DNA of 64,000 bases from Gammaproteobacteria bacterium (GTDB lineage: Bacteria > Pseudomonadota > Gammaproteobacteria > Nevskiales > Nevskiaceae): contig JAPLSA010000017.1 of assembly GCA_026398815.1 (NCBI GenBank), positions 248,001-312,000 of the forward strand, read 5' to 3'. The position numbers and the translations under genes are program-made. The notes under the pieces were generated by a model. The model did no database searches. It was not told the DNA's origin and worked only from the letters and a program-made list of their open reading frames with translations. This document shows positions 669-51,166 of the stretch, piece after piece. How positions within the stretch are numbered: the stretch's first letter is position 1; every line of letters begins with the position of its first letter.

Positions 669-2410
669 CGCCGTCACCACTGCTCGACGGCAGCCTGCCG
701 ATCGCGCTGTTCCTGCTGGTGCTGACCCTGACCACGCGGCCGCTGGGCGGCTACCTGCAGCGAGTGTTCGACGGCGAACGGACCTGGCTGTCGCCGCTGC
801 TCGGGCCGCTCGAACGCGGCTTCTACCGGCTGGCCGGCGTCAGCGCCGAACAGTCGCAGCGCTGGCCGCAGTACGCCACGGCGATGCTGGTGTTCAGCCT
901 CGGCGGCTACCTGCTGCTGTTCGCCTTGCAGCAGGCCCAAGGGCTGCTGCCGCTGAATCCGCTGGGCCTGCCGGCGCCGTCGGCGGACCTGACGCTGAAC
1001 ACCGCGATCAGCTTCGTCACCAACACCAACTGGCAGAGCTACGGCGGCGAATCGACGCTGTCGCTGCTGAGCCAGATGCTCGGGCTGGCGGTGCAGAACT
1101 TCCTGTCGGCGGCCACCGGCATCGCGCTGGCCATCGCGCTGATCCGCGGCTTCGCCCGCGAGCGCGGCGCGGCGGCGGACCTCGGCAACTTCTGGGTCGA
1201 TATCACGCGCGCCACGCTCTACGTGCTGCTGCCGCTGTCGATCCCGATGGCGCTGTTCCTGGTCTGGCAGGGCGTGCCGCAGAGCTTGGTCGGCGCGGTC
1301 GACGCCACGACGCTTGAAGGCGCCAGGCAGACGATCGCCCAGGGCCCGGTGGCCTCGCAGGTGGCGATCAAGATGCTCGGCACCAATGGCGGCGGCTTCT
1401 TCAACGCCAATGCCGCGCATCCGTTCGAGAACCCCACCGCCGTCGCCAACTTCGTGCAGATGCTGGCCATCTTCCTGATCAGCGCCGCGCTGACCAACAC
1501 CTTCGGCCGCGCGGTGAAGAACGAATGGCAGGGCTGGGCGCTGTACACGGCGATGAGCCTGCTGTTCGTGGCCGGCGCCGGGCTGGCCTACTGGGCGGAA
1601 AGCGGCGGCAATCCGGCGGTGGCCGCGCTCGGCGTGGACCAGCAGATGAGCCTGGTGCAGTCCGGCGGCAACATGGAAGGCAAGGAAGCGCGCTTCGGCA
1701 TCGCCGCCTCGACCTTGTTCGCGACCATCACCACCGATGCCTCCTGCGGCGCGGTCAACGCGATGCACGACAGCTTCATGCCGCTTGGCGGCGCGGTGAC
1801 GCTGGTCAACATCCTGCTTGGCGAAGTGGTGTTCGGCGGCGTCGGCGCCGGCCTGTACGGCATGCTGCTGTTCGCGCTCGTAGCGCTGTTCATCGCCGGG
1901 CTGATGGTCGGCCGCACGCCGGAATATCTCGGCAAGAAGATCGAGGCCCGCGAGATCAAGCTGACGGTGCTGGCGATCCTGTGCATGCCGCTGGCGCTGC
2001 TCGGCTTCCTGGCGGTAGCCAGCGTGTCGCCGCTGGCGCTGAAGAGCCTTGCCAACGCCGGCCCGCACGGCTTCAGCGAAATGCTCTACGCCTACGCATC
2101 GGCAGTCGGCAACAACGGCAGCGCCTTCGCCGGGCTCAATGCCAACACGCCGTTCTGGAACCTGAGCCTGGCGGCGGCGATGCTGATCGGCCGCTTCGCG
2201 GTGATCGTGCCGATGCTGGCGATCGCCGGCTCGCTGGCCGCCAAGGCGCGGTCACCGGCCACCGCCGGCAGCTTCCCGACCGACGGCCCGCTCTTCATCA
2301 GCCTGCTGGTGGCGATCGTGCTGATCGTCGGCGGCCTGACCTATTTCCCGGCGCTGGCGCTGGGGCCGATCGTCGAGCATCTGGCCATGCAGGCCGGTTC
2401 CTTGTTCTGA
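665..2410 (+). CDS. kdpA: KdpA, potassium channel-like subunit of KdpFABC
   Basis: The product of 581 aa contains about ten membrane segments and the potassium-selectivity loops of the SKT-related KdpA family, for example [30 protein letters not shown] and [12 protein letters not shown]. It binds and conducts K+ within the P-type ATPase complex. I chose GTG 665 because it overlaps the kdpF stop; the frame stays open further upstream, but that would run through kdpF. kdpB normally follows closely; here 487 bp of repeats intervene. Confidence 0.95.
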
Positions 2411-2420
2411 ATCATCCATC

Positions 2421-2897
2421 TCGTCATGCCAGCGAAAGCCGGCATCCAGAGCCGATGTGAACGCGCTTCGCAGGCACTGGATCCCGGCTTCCGCCGGGAT
2501 GACGGTCCAGCAGAAAGACCATGAAAGCGCAATCGTCCCCCCTCGTCCTCGTCACGCCGGCGAAAGCCGGCATCCAGAGTCGAAGAGAACGCGCTTCGCA
2601 GGCGCTGGATCCCGGCTTCCGCCGGGATGACGGTCCAGGAGAAAGACCATGAAAGCGCAATCGTCCCCCTCGTCCTCGTCATGCCGGCGAAGGCCGGCAT
2701 CCAGAGCCGATATGAACGCGCTTCGCAGGCACTGGATCCCGGCTTTCGCCGGGATGACGGTCCAGGAGAAAGACCATGAAAGCGCGATCGTCCCCCATCG
2801 TCCTCGTCATGCCGGCGAAGGCCGGCATCCAGAGTCGAAGAGAACGCGCTTCGCAGGCGCTGGATCCCGGCTTTCGCCGGGATGACGGTCCAAGAGA
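2421..2897. repeat. Four-unit REP-like array that includes copies of the kdpB start region
   Basis: Four units of 127-128 bp begin near 2421, 2549, 2676 and 2804. Each has two palindromes (GCCGGCGAAAGCCGGC-type, then CCCGGCTTTCGCCGGG-type) with about 30 bp between. Units 1 and 3 share one spacer variant and units 2 and 4 another, so the array looks like a duplicated dimer. Between units lies a near copy of the kdpB leader and first codons (purine box, ATG, then codons for KAQSSP). The last, diverged copy is the true kdpB start. Confidence 0.9.
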
Positions 2898-4958
2898 ATG
2901 GCTATGAAAATGCAATCCTCCCCCCTCGTCGGTCGTACGCTGCTGGCCCCGGCGCTGCGCGACACCTTTGCCAAGCTGCATCCGCTGCGGCTGGCGAAGA
3001 ACCCGGTGATCTTCATCACCGCGCTGGTGTCGCTGCTGGCCAGCCTGCTGTTCCTGCGCGACCTGCTGATCGGCAACCACTCCGGCGCGCCGCTGCTGTT
3101 CTCCGGCCAGGTGATCGTCTGGCTGTGGTTCACGGTGCTGTTCGCCAATTTCGCCGAGGCGCTGGCCGAAGGCCGCGGCAAGGCGCAGGCCGCCAGCCTG
3201 CGGCAGACCCGCAGCCACACCATCGCCCGCAAGCTCAACGCCAGCCGCGACGACGAGGTGAAAGTGCCGGCGACGACGCTGAAGGCCGGCGACTGCATAG
3301 TCGCCGAGACCGGCGACCTGGTACCGGCCGACGGCGAAGTGATCGACGGCATCGCCACCATCGACGAATCGGCGATCACCGGTGAATCGGCCCCGGTGAT
3401 CCGCGAGGCCGGCGGCGATCGCTCGGCGGTCACCGGCGGCACCCGGGTGCTGTCGGACCGCATCGTGGTGCGCGTCACCGCCGCGCCCGGCTCCGGCTTT
3501 CTCGACCGCATGATCGCGCTGGTCGAAGGCGCATCGCGGCAGAAGACGCCGAACGAGCTGGCGCTGAACATCCTGCTGGCGGGCTTAAGCCTGATCTTCG
3601 TGCTGGCGGTGGCCTCGATCCCGAGCTTCGCCGCCTATGCCGGCGGCGAGGTGCCGGTGATCGTGCTGGTGGCGCTGTTCGTGACCCTGATCCCGACCAC
3701 CATCGGCGCGCTGCTGTCGGCGATCGGCATCGCCGGCATGAACCGGCTGGTGCGCTTCAACGTGCTGGCGCTGTCCGGACGGGCGGTCGAGGCAGCCGGC
3801 GATGTCGATACGCTGCTGCTCGACAAGACCGGCACCATCACGCTCGGCAACCGCCAGGCCTGCGAGTTCCTGCCGGTGGCCGGCGTCCAGGAGCGCACCC
3901 TGGCCGAGGCCGCGCAGCTGGCCAGCCTGTCCGACGAAACGCCGGAAGGCCGCAGCGTCGTGGTGCTGGCGAAAGAGAAATTCGGCCTGCGCGGCCGCGA
4001 CCTGGCCGGCACGCAAGCGACCTTCATCCCGTTCACCGCGCAGACGCGGATGTCCGGCATCGATGTCGACGGCGCGGTGATCCGCAAGGGCGCCGTCGAC
4101 TCGGTGATCGACTACGTCAGCCGGCTCGCCGGCACCCGGGCGGTGCCGCCGGAGCTGAAGGCGATCGCCGAACGCGTGGCGCGGGTCGGCGGCACGCCGC
4201 TGGCCGTGGTCCGCGACGAGCAGGTGCTCGGCATCATCCACCTGAAGGATGTCGTCAAGGGCGGCATCCGCGAGCGTTTCGCCGAGCTGCGCCGCATGGG
4301 CATCCGCACGGTGATGATCACCGGCGACAACCCGCTGACCGCCGCCGCCATCGCCGCCGAGGCCGGCGTCGACGATTTCCTGGCCCAGGCGACCCCGGAG
4401 GACAAGCTGGCGCTGATCCGCAAGGAGCAGGCCGGCGGCCGGCTGGTGGCGATGTGCGGCGACGGCACCAACGACGCGCCGGCGCTAGCGCAGGCCGATG
4501 TCGGCGTGGCGATGCAGACCGGCACCGTGGCCGCTCGCGAGGCCGGCAACATGGTCGACCTCGATTCCGATCCGACCAAGCTGATCGAGATCGTCGGCAT
4601 CGGCAAGCAGCTCTTGATGACGCGCGGCGCGCTGACCACGTTCTCGATCGCCAACGATGTCGCCAAGTACTTCGCGATCGTGCCGGCGCTGTTCGCGAGC
4701 TTCTACCCGCAGCTCGATACGCTGAACGTGATGGGACTGGCGACGCCGCAGAGCGCGATCCTGTCGGCGATCATCTTCAACGCGCTGATCATCATCGTGC
4801 TGATTCCGCTGGCGCTGCGCGGTGTCGCCTACCGCGCGGTCGGCGCCGGCACCCTGCTGGCCCGCAATCTGGCGATCTACGGCGGCGGCGGCCTGATCGC
4901 CCCGTTCGTCGGCATCAAGCTGATCGACCTGGCGATCACCGCGCTGCATCTCGCCTGA
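2898..4958 (+). CDS. kdpB: KdpB, catalytic P-type ATPase subunit
   Basis: This 686-aa product is a class I P-type ATPase that phosphorylates itself to drive K+ uptake. Visible motifs are TGES (actuator), DKTGTIT with the phosphorylated Asp at about residue 309, [18 protein letters not shown] and [21 protein letters not shown]. Membrane segments lie near residues 38-80, 220-275 and 585-680. ATG 2898 is followed two codons later by another ATG, at 2904; that second ATG aligns with the ATG repeated in the upstream array, so either could be used. Confidence 0.96.
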
Positions 4959-46360: not shown

Positions 46361-47098
46361 ATGTCTCTTTCCACCCCGCGCATCGCCGTGATCAGCGGCG
46401 GCTCCTCCGGCATTGGCCTGGCCATGGTGGAACGGCTGGCCGGCGACGGCTGGATCGTCCACACCTGCGGCCGTGATGCGCTGAAGCTCGAACGCCTGCG
46501 CGCCCGGCTGCCGGCCGTGCAGACGACGGTCTGCGATGTCGCCGACCGTGCTGCCGTCCAGGCCTTCGCCGACCACGTCCTGAGCCGCGCGCCGCGCGTC
46601 GACCTGCTGGTCAGCAATGCCGGCGGCCTGCGCGAAGTCGACTTCACCGGTGCCGACCTGCGCTCACTCGATCTGGGTGGCGAACTGCGCACCAACACCG
46701 AGGGCGCACTGAACCTGATCGCGGCCTTCATGCCCGGCCTGCGCTCGGCCTCGCGGTCGGCGATCCTGATCGTCAGTTCCGGCTACGCGCTGGCACCGGC
46801 CACCCGGGCACCGCTCTATTCGGCATCCAAGGCCGCGCTGCACAGCCTGGCCGGATCATTGCGGCGCCAGCTGGCGCCGCTGGCAATCACGGTGACGGAA
46901 CTGCTGCCGCCGCTGGTCGATACGCCAGCCGTGGCACATCGGCCGGGCCGGAAGATGCCCGCCGCGACGATTGCCCGGCTGGGACTCGAGGCTGCCCTGC
47001 GTGGCCGCAAGGCTGTCCATCCGGGCCCGGTCGGCCTGCTCCGCTGGCTGCTGCGGCTGATGCCGTCGGTGGCCGAAGCCTTCGTCGCCAGAACCTGA
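46361..47098 (+). CDS. Short-chain dehydrogenase/reductase
   Basis: This classical SDR of 245 aa has the cofactor loop ISGGSSGIG, NAGG, catalytic Ser (IVSSGYAL) and YSASK. Sequence after the catalytic helix (ELLPPLVDTPAV) is substrate-binding. It oxidises or reduces a pathway alcohol or ketone with NAD(P). It lies 19 bp after the porin-like gene. Confidence 0.87.
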   Translation: MSLSTPRIAVISGGSSGIGLAMVERLAGDGWIVHTCGRDALKLERLRARLPAVQTTVCDVADRAAVQAFADHVLSRAPRVDLLVSNAGGLREVDFTGADLRSLDLGGELRTNTEGALNLIAAFMPGLRSASRSAILIVSSGYALAPATRAPLYSASKAALHSLAGSLRRQLAPLAITVTELLPPLVDTPAVAHRPGRKMPAATIARLGLEAALRGRKAVHPGPVGLLRWLLRLMPSVAEAFVART

Positions 47099-47105
47099 AA
47101 CCACC

Positions 47106-48683
47106 ATGAGCTTTCCGATTCCTTCTCGCGTCGACGTCCTCATCGTCGGCTATGGCCCGGTCGGTGCCGCGCTGGGCTGCCTGCTCGGCCGCTACGGGGT
47201 GACGACGCTGATCGTCGACAAGGCCGACGACATCCTGATGGCGCCGCGCGCGATCGCGCTGGACAACGAGGCGCTGCGCATCCTGCAGATGGCCGGCCTT
47301 GCCCACGACGCCTTCGACAAGGTGGCCATTCCGAACGTCCGCATGCACAGCCCCTATGTCGGCGAGTTCGCGCGCATCAACACCACCGGCAGCATCGATG
47401 GCCATCCCAAGCTGGTGACGTTCTACCAGCCGGATCTGGAGCGCGCGCTGCGCCGGCAGATCGCCACCCACGGCTGCGTCACCGCTCGCGGTGGCATCGA
47501 GATGACGCACTTCGTCGACACCGGCGATGGCGTCCAGGCGAGCCTGATCGGCCACGACGGCCAGCGCATGACCGTCGAAACCCGCTATCTGATCGGCGCC
47601 GACGGCGCCGGCTCGGCGGTCCGCAAGGCGATCGGTCAGGCGTTCAGCGGCCAGACCTACAGCGAAGACTGGCTGATCGTCGACGCCCGGATGCCGCCGG
47701 GGACCTTCGATCACGTCGAGTTCCTGTGCAATCCCGATCGGCCGACGCCGCACATGGTGGCCCCCGGCGGCCGCATTCGCTGGGAATTCATGCTGAAGCC
47801 CGGCGAAACCCGGGAGCAGATGGAAAGCGATGCCACGATCCAGCGCCTGCTCGCCCCCTGGGCCACCACCGGCGAGCTGAGCATCGAGCGCAAGGCCGTC
47901 TACCGCTTCCACGCACGTTCCTGCGCGCGCTACTCGAAAGGCCGCGTATTCCTGATCGGCGATGCGGCGCACATCACCCCGCCCTTCGTCGGCCAGGGGC
48001 TGGTCTCGGGACTCCGCGACGCCGCCAATCTCGGCTGGAAGCTGGCCTGGGTCCTGCGCGGACAGGCCTCCGCCAAGATTCTCGACAGCTACGACCGCGA
48101 GCGCCGCCCTCACGCCGCCAAGATGATCCGGCTCGCGAAGTTCATGGGGCGGATGGTGATGCCGAGCAACGCCGCGGTGGCCATCGCCATCCACGGATTC
48201 ATGCGCCTTTTGCGGCTGATACCCGGTCTGCGCGCGTTCTTCGAGGAACTCGGCGTCAAGCCGCAGAACCGCTATCCCGACGGCTTGTTCGTCAAAGGGC
48301 GCGGACGGCTGCCACGTGGCGGCATGCTGCCCCAGGGGCTGGTGCGCGACCCAGGCGGCGCCTGCCGGCCAAGCGACGACGCGCTGGGCCCGAATCTGAC
48401 GCTGCTGGGCTTCGGACTCGATCCGGATCGCCACCTGGACTCCGCAACCCGCGCGGACTGGCAGGCCCGTGGCGGCCGCATCGCGCAGATCAGCATGTCC
48501 GGCGAAGCCCTGTATCGCGGCGACAACGCCTTCGATGAGCTTGCCAACACGCTGCTGCCAGGCGCGGCGCCCTACGGCTGGTGCGCGGTGATCCGCCCGG
48601 ATCGCCAGATCATCCACGATGGCCCGATCGGCGACGCCGCCCGTCTGGTCCGAGAATCGATCGCCGTCCTCGACGGCAACTGA
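47106..48683 (+). CDS. FAD-dependent aromatic hydroxylase (MhpA-like)
   Basis: The 525-aa protein has the FAD loop IVGYGPVGAALGCLL, the GADGAGSAVRKAIG motif, LIGDAAHITPPFVGQGL and SGLRDAANLGWKLAW, all of the class A flavoprotein hydroxylases such as MhpA. It hydroxylates a phenol-type ring with NAD(P)H and oxygen, giving the catechol for the extradiol enzyme. It is the last gene of the operon, and no clear rightward terminator follows. Confidence 0.88.
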   Translation: MSFPIPSRVDVLIVGYGPVGAALGCLLGRYGVTTLIVDKADDILMAPRAIALDNEALRILQMAGLAHDAFDKVAIPNVRMHSPYVGEFARINTTGSIDGHPKLVTFYQPDLERALRRQIATHGCVTARGGIEMTHFVDTGDGVQASLIGHDGQRMTVETRYLIGADGAGSAVRKAIGQAFSGQTYSEDWLIVDARMPPGTFDHVEFLCNPDRPTPHMVAPGGRIRWEFMLKPGETREQMESDATIQRLLAPWATTGELSIERKAVYRFHARSCARYSKGRVFLIGDAAHITPPFVGQGLVSGLRDAANLGWKLAWVLRGQASAKILDSYDRERRPHAAKMIRLAKFMGRMVMPSNAAVAIAIHGFMRLLRLIPGLRAFFEELGVKPQNRYPDGLFVKGRGRLPRGGMLPQGLVRDPGGACRPSDDALGPNLTLLGFGLDPDRHLDSATRADWQARGGRIAQISMSGEALYRGDNAFDELANTLLPGAAPYGWCAVIRPDRQIIHDGPIGDAARLVRESIAVLDGN

Positions 48684-48760
48684 GCGAGCCCGCCACCGCG
48701 TCGTCCTGACCGCGCGAACACTGGGCTTGCTGCGCACAAGCGCGATATGGGCCGCACAGC

Positions 48761-48781
48761 AAAAAGGCCGCATCAGCGGCC
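48761..48781 (-). terminator. Leftward terminator beside the tRNA fragment
   Basis: Read leftward, GGCCGC-TGAT-GCGGCC is followed by TTTTT (A-run 48761-48765). No leftward gene ends here now, but the tRNA-Lys 3' fragment lies 37 bp away in the right orientation. It is probably the ancestral terminator of tRNA-Lys, left behind when the island inserted. Confidence 0.65.
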
Positions 48782-48817
48782 CCGTAATGTGCAACTTATT
48801 GTATTTGCGCCGAAAAA

Positions 48818-48863
48818 ATGGTGGGTCGTGATGGGATCGAACCATCGACCAACGGATTAAAAG
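48818..48863 (-). repeat. 46-bp duplicated 3' end of tRNA-Lys (distal island junction)
   Basis: This 46-bp sequence is identical to 50331-50376, which includes the CCA end, T-arm and anticodon loop of the intact tRNA-Lys gene. After TAAAAG the two copies diverge. A 3' tRNA fragment in this place is the classic mark of integration into a tRNA gene. A short dyad TGCTGG/CCAGCA (48866-48882) follows. Confidence 0.92.
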
Positions 48864-49104
48864 CCTGCTGGTATATCCAGCAAAAACAAGCCACTAGTCA
48901 AAATATTTTCTTGGATTAAGAGTTTTTTTTGGCCTGAAATATCAGCAACTTAGCTAGTCTTTGTGTAACCGCTTTTGCCCCTCATTGCATCGGTTTAATA
49001 CGATGTTTGAGGAGGCTTTAAGCGGAAGTCAAAGCGCCGGGTTGAACAGCTATGCCGAGAATATCAGCCCAAACCAGACCTCTTAGCCAATGTGCGCTGG
49101 TTAA

Positions 49105-49713
49105 CTATTCGTAAAATTTGGCGAAACCGTCCATGTAATGCTCGGACATATAATGCTCAATCAATGCGGGAGGAACAGGATAAAGCTTCGCAAGAGCGTC
49201 AATATTTAAGGGTGATGCTTCGCTGAAGTGCCTTTTTCTCTCAACGTATGGAAACAAAAACTCCATAGCTGCGATTTCAGCCAAGATCTCGCTCGTGACG
49301 TTTTTCCCCGGACTCGAATCGGCTACAGACATGGTAAATAGGCACCCTTCCGCGTGACCGTAAAGATCCGTCGTCCTGCAATCTTCACTACCCGGATCAT
49401 CTAAAACAACATGGAAGAGTTCTTTACATGCAGCGAAATTCCGCCAGCTATCCTCTTGTCCTGCAAGAACATAGACCTCATAAGAATTCTTATCAAGCGA
49501 CATATAAAGCGCTCGGATCATCGAATCCTTTCCTTCAAGGTCAATCTCGATGATCTCAATGTGTTTGTGAATGTATTCACGACAAATCTTCAACAGAATA
49601 TCTGGCGTTTTCTGCTGATAACTGGCGGGGAGTTGACCGTAATGATCAAGCACTTGTTTTGCGTGCGTTAGCGCATGGCTAACTAGGCGATCATCAACAT
49701 GCGCTGAAAACAC
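49105..49713 (-). CDS. ImmA/IrrE-like metallopeptidase homologue (degenerate site)
   Basis: The 202-aa protein shows the zincin-like pattern FAACKELFHVVLDD (residues 93-106) and, about 50 residues later, SEILAEIAAMEFLFPYVER, which match the HExxH and E-x2-A-x2-F-x2-LLMP features of the ImmA/IrrE (DUF955, M78) family. The first zinc His is Lys97 here; Glu98 and His101 remain. GTG 49713 has AAGGA upstream. It lies on the tRNA-Lys island. Related peptidases act in phage-repressor cleavage and in toxin-antitoxin or stress control. Confidence 0.5.
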   Translation of the reverse strand: MFSAHVDDRLVSHALTHAKQVLDHYGQLPASYQQKTPDILLKICREYIHKHIEIIEIDLEGKDSMIRALYMSLDKNSYEVYVLAGQEDSWRNFAACKELFHVVLDDPGSEDCRTTDLYGHAEGCLFTMSVADSSPGKNVTSEILAEIAAMEFLFPYVERKRHFSEASPLNIDALAKLYPVPPALIEHYMSEHYMDGFAKFYE

Positions 49714-49741
49714 TGAGAGTCCTTACTTTTATTTTTTTAAT

Positions 49742-49764
49742 AAAAAAGGGCCTTTCGGCCCTTT
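49742..49764 (-). terminator. Strong terminator between the two island genes
   Basis: Read leftward, AAAGGGCC-GAAA-GGCCCTTT is followed by more Ts and an AT-rich run. It lies 18 bp after the stop of the 65-aa gene and 28 bp before the start of the peptidase-like gene, so the two are probably separate transcription units. Confidence 0.88.
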
Positions 49765-49782
49765 CAACGAAAATCTATTGAA

Positions 49783-49980
49783 TTATGCCGCGTTCAACGA
49801 CGAGAAACTTGGGATTTTACGCGTCTTACCATCGCGCACAGCCTCAAGAACAGCAGCCATATCCGAAGCCAAGTCAGAAACCGAAGTTTCCGACGAAGGA
49901 TTAAAATAGAACTTTACGTCCTTTACACCGCGCTCTTCGAGCGCGGCCTGCAAAGCTTGCAGTCGTTCTTTAGCGCTCAT
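49783..49980 (-). CDS. 65-aa protein of unknown function on the island
   Basis: The product starts MSAKERLQALQAALEERGVK and ends RDGKTRKIPSFSSLNAA. ATG 49980 has a good GGAG site eight bases upstream; ATG 49995 in frame is less likely. The N-terminal helix is charged, a short strand-like KFYFNP follows, then an acidic helix. No known family or DNA-binding motif was seen. Its size and position next to the peptidase-like gene could suit an antitoxin or regulator, but that is a guess. Confidence 0.6.
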   Translation of the reverse strand: MSAKERLQALQAALEERGVKDVKFYFNPSSETSVSDLASDMAAVLEAVRDGKTRKIPSFSSLNAA

Positions 49981-50212
49981 CACTGTCTCCGTCATTGTAG
50001 ATCGCTACCACATTGCCATCAGAAGGGCAAACCCTCGGTAATCGCGATGATACACGCAATGCGTGGGCAACAAAAGCCGCTCGATGGCGCGAACAGTACC
50101 GCAGAACGAAAGGCTCATGAAAACAAGCAAAATTTTTTGCTGCAAGTAACCGTTCGTCGGTTGCGATGCTCTGCGAGACCCATAAAGCGGAGGCTCAGCG
50201 CATCAAAGATGC

Positions 50213-50250
50213 GCAAAAAAAATCCGTCAAAACATCAGACGGATTTTTTC
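50213..50250. terminator. Bidirectional terminator at the right end of the island
   Basis: AAAATCCGTC (50219-50228) pairs with GACGGATTTT (50238-50247), with an A-run before and a T-run after, so it can stop transcription both ways. In the leftward direction it would end the tRNA-Lys transcript about 80 bp past the tRNA. Confidence 0.8.
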
Positions 50251-50330
50251 TTGGACCAATTTTCTTAATTTCAATACCGATTTACCTCGAATCGCGCCTG
50301 ACGTTTCAATCTAAGTCATTGAAAAGATTG

Positions 50331-50376
50331 ATGGTGGGTCGTGATGGGATCGAACCATCGACCAACGGATTAAAAG
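50331..50376 (-). repeat. 46-bp direct repeat within tRNA-Lys (proximal island junction)
   Basis: This is the partner of 48818-48863, identical over 46 bp and 1513 bp apart. This copy belongs to the intact tRNA gene. Confidence 0.92.
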
Positions 50377-50406
50377 TCCGATGCTCTACCGCTGAGCTAA
50401 CGACCC
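50332..50406 (-). tRNA. tRNA-Lys (anticodon TTT)
   Basis: The minus strand reads GGGTCGT ... ACGACCC-A-CCA: a perfect 7-bp acceptor stem, D-arm GCTCAGCGGTAGAGC, anticodon loop CTTTTAA with anticodon TTT, T-loop TTCGATC, and an encoded CCA end. It lies 55 bp downstream of queC on the same strand and serves as the integration site of the adjoining island. Confidence 0.96.
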
Positions 50407-50461
50407 ATTGTCAACTGCGGCGCGGATTATAGCGGCAAGCGCCGTTGAAACGGCATGCGAT

Positions 50462-51166
50462 TCAAGCTGCGGCGTAGCGAGTGGGATCGGCGATGCCGGC
50501 AGCCGCGAAGCCTTCGCGGCGCAGGCGGCAGGAATCGCAGCGGCCGCAGGCGCGGCCGTCGGCATCGGCCTGGTAGCAGGAGACGGTTTCGGCGAAATCG
50601 ACGCCGAGTGCGGTGCCGCGACGAATGATTTCGGCCTTGCTGAGCGCGATCAGCGGCGTCTCGATCCGGAGCCGTCCGCCTTCGACGCCGACCCGGGTGG
50701 CCAGCTGCGCGACGTTCTCGAACGCGGCGATGAAGGCCGGCCGGCAGTCGGGATAGCCGCTGTAGTCGACGGCGTTGACGCCGATGTAGATCGCTTCCGC
50801 ACCCTGCACTTCAGCGAGCCCGAGCGCCAGCGACAGGAACAGCGTGTTGCGGGCCGGTACGTAAGTCACCGGAATGCTGTTGCCGCCGCTGGCCGGGTCC
50901 GGCGCCTGGCCTTCCGGCACGGCGATGCGGTGGTCGGTCAACGCCGAGCCGCCGATCAGGTCGAGATTGACCTGGATCAGCCGGTGCGAGGCCGCGCCCA
51001 GCCGGCGCGCGACTTTCACCGAGGCGTCCAGCTCGGCGCTGTGCCGCTGGCCGTAGGCGACGCTGAGCGCGTGGCAGACGTAGCCATCGGCACGCGCCAT
51101 CGCCAGCGCCGTCGCGGAATCGAGACCGCCACTGAGCAGCACGACGGCGGAACGGGGATGGGACAT
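50462..51166 (-). CDS. queC: QueC, 7-cyano-7-deazaguanine synthase
   Basis: The 234-aa protein has the PP-loop [15 protein letters not shown] and the C-terminal zinc cluster with Cys in SCYQ, ACGRC and SCRL. It converts 7-carboxy-7-deazaguanine to preQ0 using ATP and ammonia in queuosine synthesis. ATG 51166 begins [11 protein letters not shown]; the frame extends upstream but without family sequence. It is the last protein gene of the tol-pal-que run. Confidence 0.95.

Follow-up and report, generated by a model that had tools for sequence, protein, structure and literature searches.

In tRNA genes, the anticodon loop is among the three crossover subsites of tyrosine integrases listed in the description of Islander, a finder that demands an integrase and discards candidates under 2 kb (PMC4383910). 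Elements that have lost their integration functions are nevertheless known. CIMEs are described as decayed ICEs or IMEs retaining attL and attR (PMC5704250) and, in Dehalococcoides, 15 islands at ssrA devoid of integration modules were proposed as possible CIMEs (PMC3146451). Remnants of prophages are known as "grounded" or degenerate prophages (PMC6379469). Some tRNA genes are used repeatedly: the tRNA-Lys genes of Pseudomonas aeruginosa are described as hotspots (PA0976.1, PA4541.1; PAPI-1, PAGI-4, pKLC102; PMC5297154).

The locus presented here is a 1.5-kb insert at a tRNA-Lys gene, located within a stretch of 64,000 nucleotides that was analysed as a whole and is called the window below. 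As in a CIME, attL and attR are kept and the integration and transfer genes are gone. However, the parent of the island looks phage-like, the whole unit is no longer than 1.5 kb, and a tandem partner was not observed. The island resembles a prophage remnant in being a phage-related gene pair at a tRNA integration site, but no structural or integration gene was found in it and both att ends are kept. Finally, tRNA-Lys is a reused island site as in P. aeruginosa, whereas the islands found there are large.

The gene pair, p70-p202, can itself be compared with known two-gene modules. CapP pairs with CapH. In RosmerTA, an anti-phage system, an ImmA-type antitoxin with a protease domain (RmrA) is paired with various toxins (RmrT), and ImmA-ImmR is described as another ImmA/IrrE (M78) module (PMC10440598). 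Like these systems, p70-p202 is a phage-carried two-gene unit with an M78-like fold. It differs from them in that p202 has KExxH instead of HExxH, in that its 70-aa partner matches no library family above a curated cut-off and in that the two genes are mostly separated by an intergenic hairpin. The element is of a known kind and the gene pair is the newer part, for which absence from print is not claimed.

A site-specific insertion at tRNA-Lys

The insert is a real site-specific insertion having the anatomy of a tyrosine-integrase product (Table 1). The original prediction, made from the letters alone, had described identical 46-bp copies 1513 bp apart, one in an intact tRNA-Lys and the other as a 3' fragment, with AT-rich DNA between them, an ancestral-looking terminator past the distal copy and no integrase. 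It had read the whole as an integrative element at a tRNA 3' end. Each of these observations was borne out. Indeed, positions 48818-48863 and 50331-50376 are identical at 46 of 46 bases with the spacing given, and ARAGORN finds a tRNA-Lys(TTT) as the sole tRNA of the window. The repeat is composed of 45 tRNA bases plus one neighbouring base. Its identity starts at base 1 of the seven-base anticodon loop (CTTTTAA) and extends to the CCA end. With a model of single-base composition, chance would yield about 8e-17 exact pairs of 46-mers, and a 32-base part of the core has no third copy in the genome carrying the island (95.6% complete; up to 3 mismatches allowed). The intact tRNA and the displaced 3' fragment, in the same orientation, bound foreign DNA: G+C is 45.1% in 48864-50331 vs. 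67.5% in the window, and among 1251 sliding windows of the insert size, the one with the lowest G+C begins at 48850.

An empty site, which the original prediction proposed to look for in relatives, is found in G010, a genome of the same genus. There, tRNA-Lys is followed by the equivalent terminator without an insert between them, and the query parts 48750-48863 and 50330-50877 join with an overlap of about 46 bp. The terminator, GGGCCGCyGATGCGGCCTTTTT, is shared by the far side of the island and by the 3' side of tRNA-Lys at this empty site. The integrative-element reading is supported by a crossover at the anticodon loop, by the foreign composition of the insert and by the vacant site of G010. 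No integrase gene was detected inside the insert, nor was a conjugation gene matched in it. Only p70 and a 46-aa ORF gave Pfam matches, all below cut-off and none to an integrase, and comparison of the insert with 16 integrases gave nothing significant (best E 0.04).

Table 1. Features of the tRNA-Lys insert, in window positions
Feature	Position	Strand	Basis or remark
Ancestral transcription terminator of tRNA-Lys, displaced by the insertion	48764-48783	-	Terminator-like hairpin; equivalent in G010
Distal attachment site, formed by the displaced tRNA-Lys 3' part (anticodon loop through CCA) and one further base	48818-48863	-	46/46 vs. 50331-50376
Distal inner flank, 241 bp, without recognisable gene	48864-49104	.	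Hairpin 48864-48884 adjoins the core; integrase remnant not found
p202, predicted 202-aa divergent ImmA/IrrE (M78)-like protein, GTG start, KExxH for HExxH	49105-49713	-	Peptidase_M78 matches in the family, AlphaFold2, Foldseek, alignment
p70-p202 intergenic hairpin, then T tract	49746-49763	-	Spacer z -2.42
p70, 70-aa partner protein	49783-49995	-	Related genes precede those related to p202; phage XacN1 has a related gene on its own
tRNA-proximal inner flank, 336 bp	49996-50331	.	TCAATGACTTA at 50312-50322(-) adjoins the core
tRNA-Lys(TTT), intact, restored by the element, adjoins queC	50332-50406	-	ARAGORN; Rfam 72.6 bits; QueC match

The reading frames of p70 and p202 are both uninterrupted, so that decay is not visible inside the insert. 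A 10-mer is common to both inner ends, 76 and 52 nt from the core (shuffle p 0.07), and could correspond to intact integrase arm sites. At the distal end, the core and its neighbouring DNA (48822-48892) give a full-length but weak tRNA score of 23.9 bits, under the Rfam cut-off of 29; the D-arm-like hairpin beside this core seems to have been supplied by the element. Past the distal copy, SDR and FAD-monooxygenase genes (46361-48683) are unmatched in 19 sister tRNA-Lys loci (tblastn, E 1e-4), and this flank looks like a synteny break. On the other side, the queC neighbourhood is presumably shared with the PA0976.1 tRNA-Lys of P. aeruginosa. The whole insert, compared with plasmids in "distant" mode, gave 301 records, none with at least 80% coverage; the 10 matches listed out of these 301 concern tRNA copies or the stretch 1494-1589 of the insert, at its tRNA end, alone.

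Occupation of the tRNA-Lys site in related genomes

The tRNA-Lys site is variable within the genus. Besides the empty site of G010, an integrase adjoins tRNA-Lys in G016, where it is 50% identical to an integrase of the island-carrying genome. An integrase of a different type adjoins tRNA-Lys in G008, and an integrase fragment is found there in G017. As for p202, it is present in one of 18 genomes of the genus, that of the island itself.

The original prediction held that larger integrase-bearing versions of the locus in sister genomes would favour a remnant. This is partly borne out by G053, where the same tRNA-Lys is occupied by a phage-like insertion with an integrase, but this genome belongs to the same order only and the insertion carries other cargo. 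In G053, a 47-base displaced part of tRNA-Lys is followed by a terminator. The repeat starts two bases before the anticodon loop, i.e. it is two bases longer than that of the island. An integrase gene (PF00589, 6.6e-25) lies 165 bp inside the distal end, that of the displaced tRNA, and a head-closure gene, Hc1 (phrog_161, 5.6e-18), is found at the tRNA-Lys end. These two ends are on different contigs, and a prophage joining them is presumed. The p70-p202 module is absent from the G053 genome, as searched with alignments.

In G060, an integrase is accompanied by a core of the same 47-base extent as in G053. One region (L108:3306-4870; G060:C132) has the integrase, the 47-base tRNA-Lys core and an arm word grouped in an attP-like manner, and another contig (L110) has an intact tRNA-Lys followed by a terminator. 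Such an arrangement might reflect a circle that was excised, a tandem or the presence of a second element.

The p70-p202 gene pair

p202 itself has no Pfam match, Peptidase_M78 included. Its sequence profile finds nothing under E 0.04 in the PDB, and the NCBIfam search gave nothing useful. At the level of the family, Peptidase_M78 (ImmA/IrrE; Pfam) matches eight of 10 members at E ≤0.1 (best 4.1e-8), one of them, the p202 of L072, over the curated cut-off. PHROG 87, a metallo-protease family, matches five of the 10, and CARF gives one weak match among them. The AlphaFold2 model of p202 (mean pLDDT 80) was compared with the PDB using Foldseek. It matches a Mycobacterium tuberculosis regulator (5e-4), Deinococcus IrrE (1.2e-3), and CapP (6e-3), with TM-scores by query length of 0.46-0.57 overall and of 0.53 for IrrE; it also matches viral proteins of the IrrE type. 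From the domain matches within the family and the fold of the predicted model, p202 is predicted to be a member of a divergent ImmA/IrrE (M78) family. Ordinary protease activity of p202 is doubtful because the zinc motif HExxH reads KExxH in all 10 members of alignment A3.

Less can be said of p70. It has a weak PHROG match to a tail protein family (E 0.0045), no Pfam match above cut-off, and no library family above curated cut-off. PHROGs searched with three p70 relatives gave nothing at E 0.05, and PADLOC left both p70 and p202 unmatched. The structure model of p70 was poor (pLDDT 69) and was left unused.

The spacer between the two genes contains a hairpin in eight of the nine spacers folded (z -2.3 to -5.4), followed by a T tract in most of them. 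The spacer of L002 lacks it (z +0.4), and the gap of L097 is too short to fold. In L077, where the p202 start is uncertain, the hairpin might lie partly within the reading frame. The stems differ in sequence between more distant loci, so that the position is kept rather than the letters. The hairpin 49746-49763 is not among the five hits of a consensus terminator scan of the window. With such a hairpin, more p70 than p202 might be produced. Tentatively, and with somewhat less than even confidence, we suggest that the module is lysogeny-linked and regulatory, toxin-antitoxin-like or devoted to defence, in which the hairpin would keep the output of p202 below that of p70, and p202 would be a sensor or binder with an M78 fold rather than a standard zinc protease.

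The p202 family is sparse. In the class, a single-sequence search finds p202 in one of 369 genomes and alignment A1 finds the family in three of 369; alignment A3 finds it in two of 398 genomes of the phylum and in three of 85 genomes of the order, the island-carrying genome being included in these three alignment counts. Two matches were dropped as weak, that of G518 in the phylum (L099; no module match by tblastn) and that of G825 in the order (L098; overlap with another ORF, judged by eye). In G812, from the order, the pair lies in a stretch without tRNA. A scan of genome contigs for p202 gave one relative (L037) among 25 pattern matches. Relatives of p202 were detected in five viral contigs by a single-sequence scan, to which the alignment adds L072, L077, and L078; the latter is not counted apart from L077, both proteins being identical. 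No match was obtained with p202 by tblastn in the phage and plasmid collections, nor with the p202 of L072 in phages, and none of 55 matches of p70 peptide patterns in viral contigs was confirmed.

Relatives of p70 and p202 are found in the same gene order in viral contigs and in chromosomes, both proteins being homologous to products of genes in viral contigs. A small gene lies directly upstream of p202 in all nine other loci having the upstream side and a whole p202 (L002, L004, L005, L006, L072, L077, L089, L090, and L097; L003, cut at the contig start, and L037, with a p202 fragment alone, are left out). The product of this gene is 41-46% identical to p70 in L002, L004, L005, L006, and L072. 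Pairwise profile comparison relates it to p70 in L089 (E 1.9e-6), L077 (4.9e-5), and L097 (6.6e-5); in L090, the relationship is mainly positional (profile E 0.0048, probability 7%). In phage XacN1, ORF194 (L092:3986-4249) is a lone relative of p70. The adjoining ORF193 was considered as a p202 relative, which comparison ruled out. p70 may therefore act apart from p202, since the gene next to ORF194 is not a p202 relative.

The surroundings of the pair vary. In a context scan of 13 loci, which used 16 integrases and would miss other types, four (L071, L072, L073, and L075) have an uninterrupted integrase no more than 2 kb downstream of p202; among the 13, L078 is a repeat of L077, and no module match was obtained in L099. 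L072 is a prophage edge where the 3' end of a tRNA-Arg at about base 70, read by eye and not called by ARAGORN, is followed by p70 at 472, p202 at 753, and an integrase at 2084-3265 on the opposite strand. The gap between tRNA and p70 is about 400 bp there vs. 336 bp in the island, in the same orientation. In L002, the order is SRAP gene, p70-p202 pair, integrase, dus gene, the integrase being located between the module and att. In L077, the pair adjoins an Ogr/Delta gene. At a tRNA-Leu of Nitrosospira sp. Nsp14 (L037:10016-11936), a p202 fragment accompanies a broken integrase that shares 49-56% identity with the one in G016; L037 is another decayed island with p202. In L089 (9691-10674), the pair is flanked by genes for an acetyl-CoA synthetase and a Rieske oxygenase. 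The 19 kb examined there are free of tRNA genes, integrases gave no match, and no repeat of at least 14 bp spans the pair.

Origin of the insert

The insert is probably what a deletion left of a prophage integrated at the tRNA, with just the att ends and a single pair of phage genes surviving. A temperate phage or phage-like element would have integrated into tRNA-Lys, its tyrosine integrase crossing over at the anticodon loop. This integration would have restored tRNA-Lys and shifted the old 3' part and the terminator away. Later, an internal deletion would have taken the integrase and the remaining phage, leaving 1.5 kb with both attachment sites and the two-gene module. Because L072 reads tRNA-p70-p202-integrase, a single internal deletion starting past p202 and stopping close to the far end could yield the insert. 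Of the two alternatives named in the original prediction, a deletion remnant or a small element moved by an integrase in trans, we favour the first because of the phage-borne relatives of the cargo, the gene order of L072, and the insertion of G053 at the same tRNA-Lys. Several observations speak against it. The order tRNA-module-integrase is seen in L072 only, L002 being different. The G053 insertion belongs to a same-order genome only, is devoid of the module and is not seen whole, and the integrase stands at the module's side in L072 vs. the distal end in G053. The absence of visible decay in the two reading frames and the possible arm sites count against it as well. A larger copy of the same element was not found in the genomes searched, nor was an intermediate form, and no fragment of another phage gene was recognised in the flanks.

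Mobility in trans through a helper integrase is kept as a possibility because both att ends look intact; none of the searches gave it positive support. It is the basis of an unlikely reading, according to which two att sites and the p70-p202 cargo form a tiny non-autonomous element moved by the integrases of passing phages or resident elements. The identity of the att cores and the 10-mer shared by the island ends are consistent with it, as is the fact that elements with an integrase, in G053 and apparently in G060, cross over within two bases of the same point, and the absence of the insert in G010 indicates gain or loss at the site. However, a single instance is known among the genomes of the genus and, by single-sequence search, of the class; as for the three found by alignment in the order, the G812 pair is without a tRNA and G825 was dropped. 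Moreover, a suitable integrase, which the original prediction proposed to seek in the island-carrying genome, was not located. Of the nine phage-integrase loci found, four adjoin tRNA-Met, tRNA-Ser, and two tRNA-Arg genes, and none is at tRNA-Lys. Nor is any of them closely similar to the integrases of G053 or G060 (at most 27% identity over 300 aa; up to 39% in shorter alignments, over 41 aa). An integrase of the L072 type was not found in this genome, and exact patterns for the core, and for the core plus arm, gave no match in viral contigs. A more specific working version, which appears quite unlikely, is that of a minimal element made of the tRNA-Lys att ends and of a self-preserving p70-hairpin-p202 module of a new KExxH M78 family, acting as a toxin-antitoxin or phage defence unit and moved by the integrases of passing phages.

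A non-phage origin has to be weighed as well. The insert might derive from a degraded genomic island (ICE, IME or P4-like) whose cargo incidentally included a phage gene pair, and the integrases adjoining tRNA-Lys in G016 and G008, the fragment in G017, and the L037 island with its G016-like broken integrase are in line with this. We nevertheless give it only a slim chance. Relatives of the module are found mostly in viral contigs, the sole tRNA-adjacent whole example, L072, is a prophage edge, and the crossover matches that of the phage-like insertion in G053 within two bases. An origin of the tRNA copy in ordinary duplication or in homologous recombination, rather than in site-specific integration, is scarcely credible. 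Nothing specific favours it, and the copy ends at the anticodon loop, the composition is foreign, the terminator stands on the far side and the empty site is clean.

As a probable remnant, the insert illustrates the extent to which a phage integrated at a tRNA can be reduced without losing its two ends and a last pair of genes. It would escape finders of the Islander type, which demand an integrase and a length of at least 2 kb. The p70-p202 pair is the more useful lead, being found in different phages and also in chromosomes without a detected integrase. If the pair turns out to be a defence or toxin-antitoxin module, selection on the cargo would explain the survival of the remnant.

Finally, words like TCAATGACTTA adjoin tRNA 3' ends in L072, G053, G027, and the tRNA-Arg(CCG) element of the island-carrying genome, this motif having been picked post hoc. 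The word TCAAnRRYTTA, picked after viewing the island, matches four of 15 tRNA flanks examined and serves as a mere lead. At the tRNA-Arg(CCG) of the same genome (L085:9025-11174), AAATCAATAACTTA and then an integrase are located on the 3' side, which resembles the tRNA-proximal end of the island.
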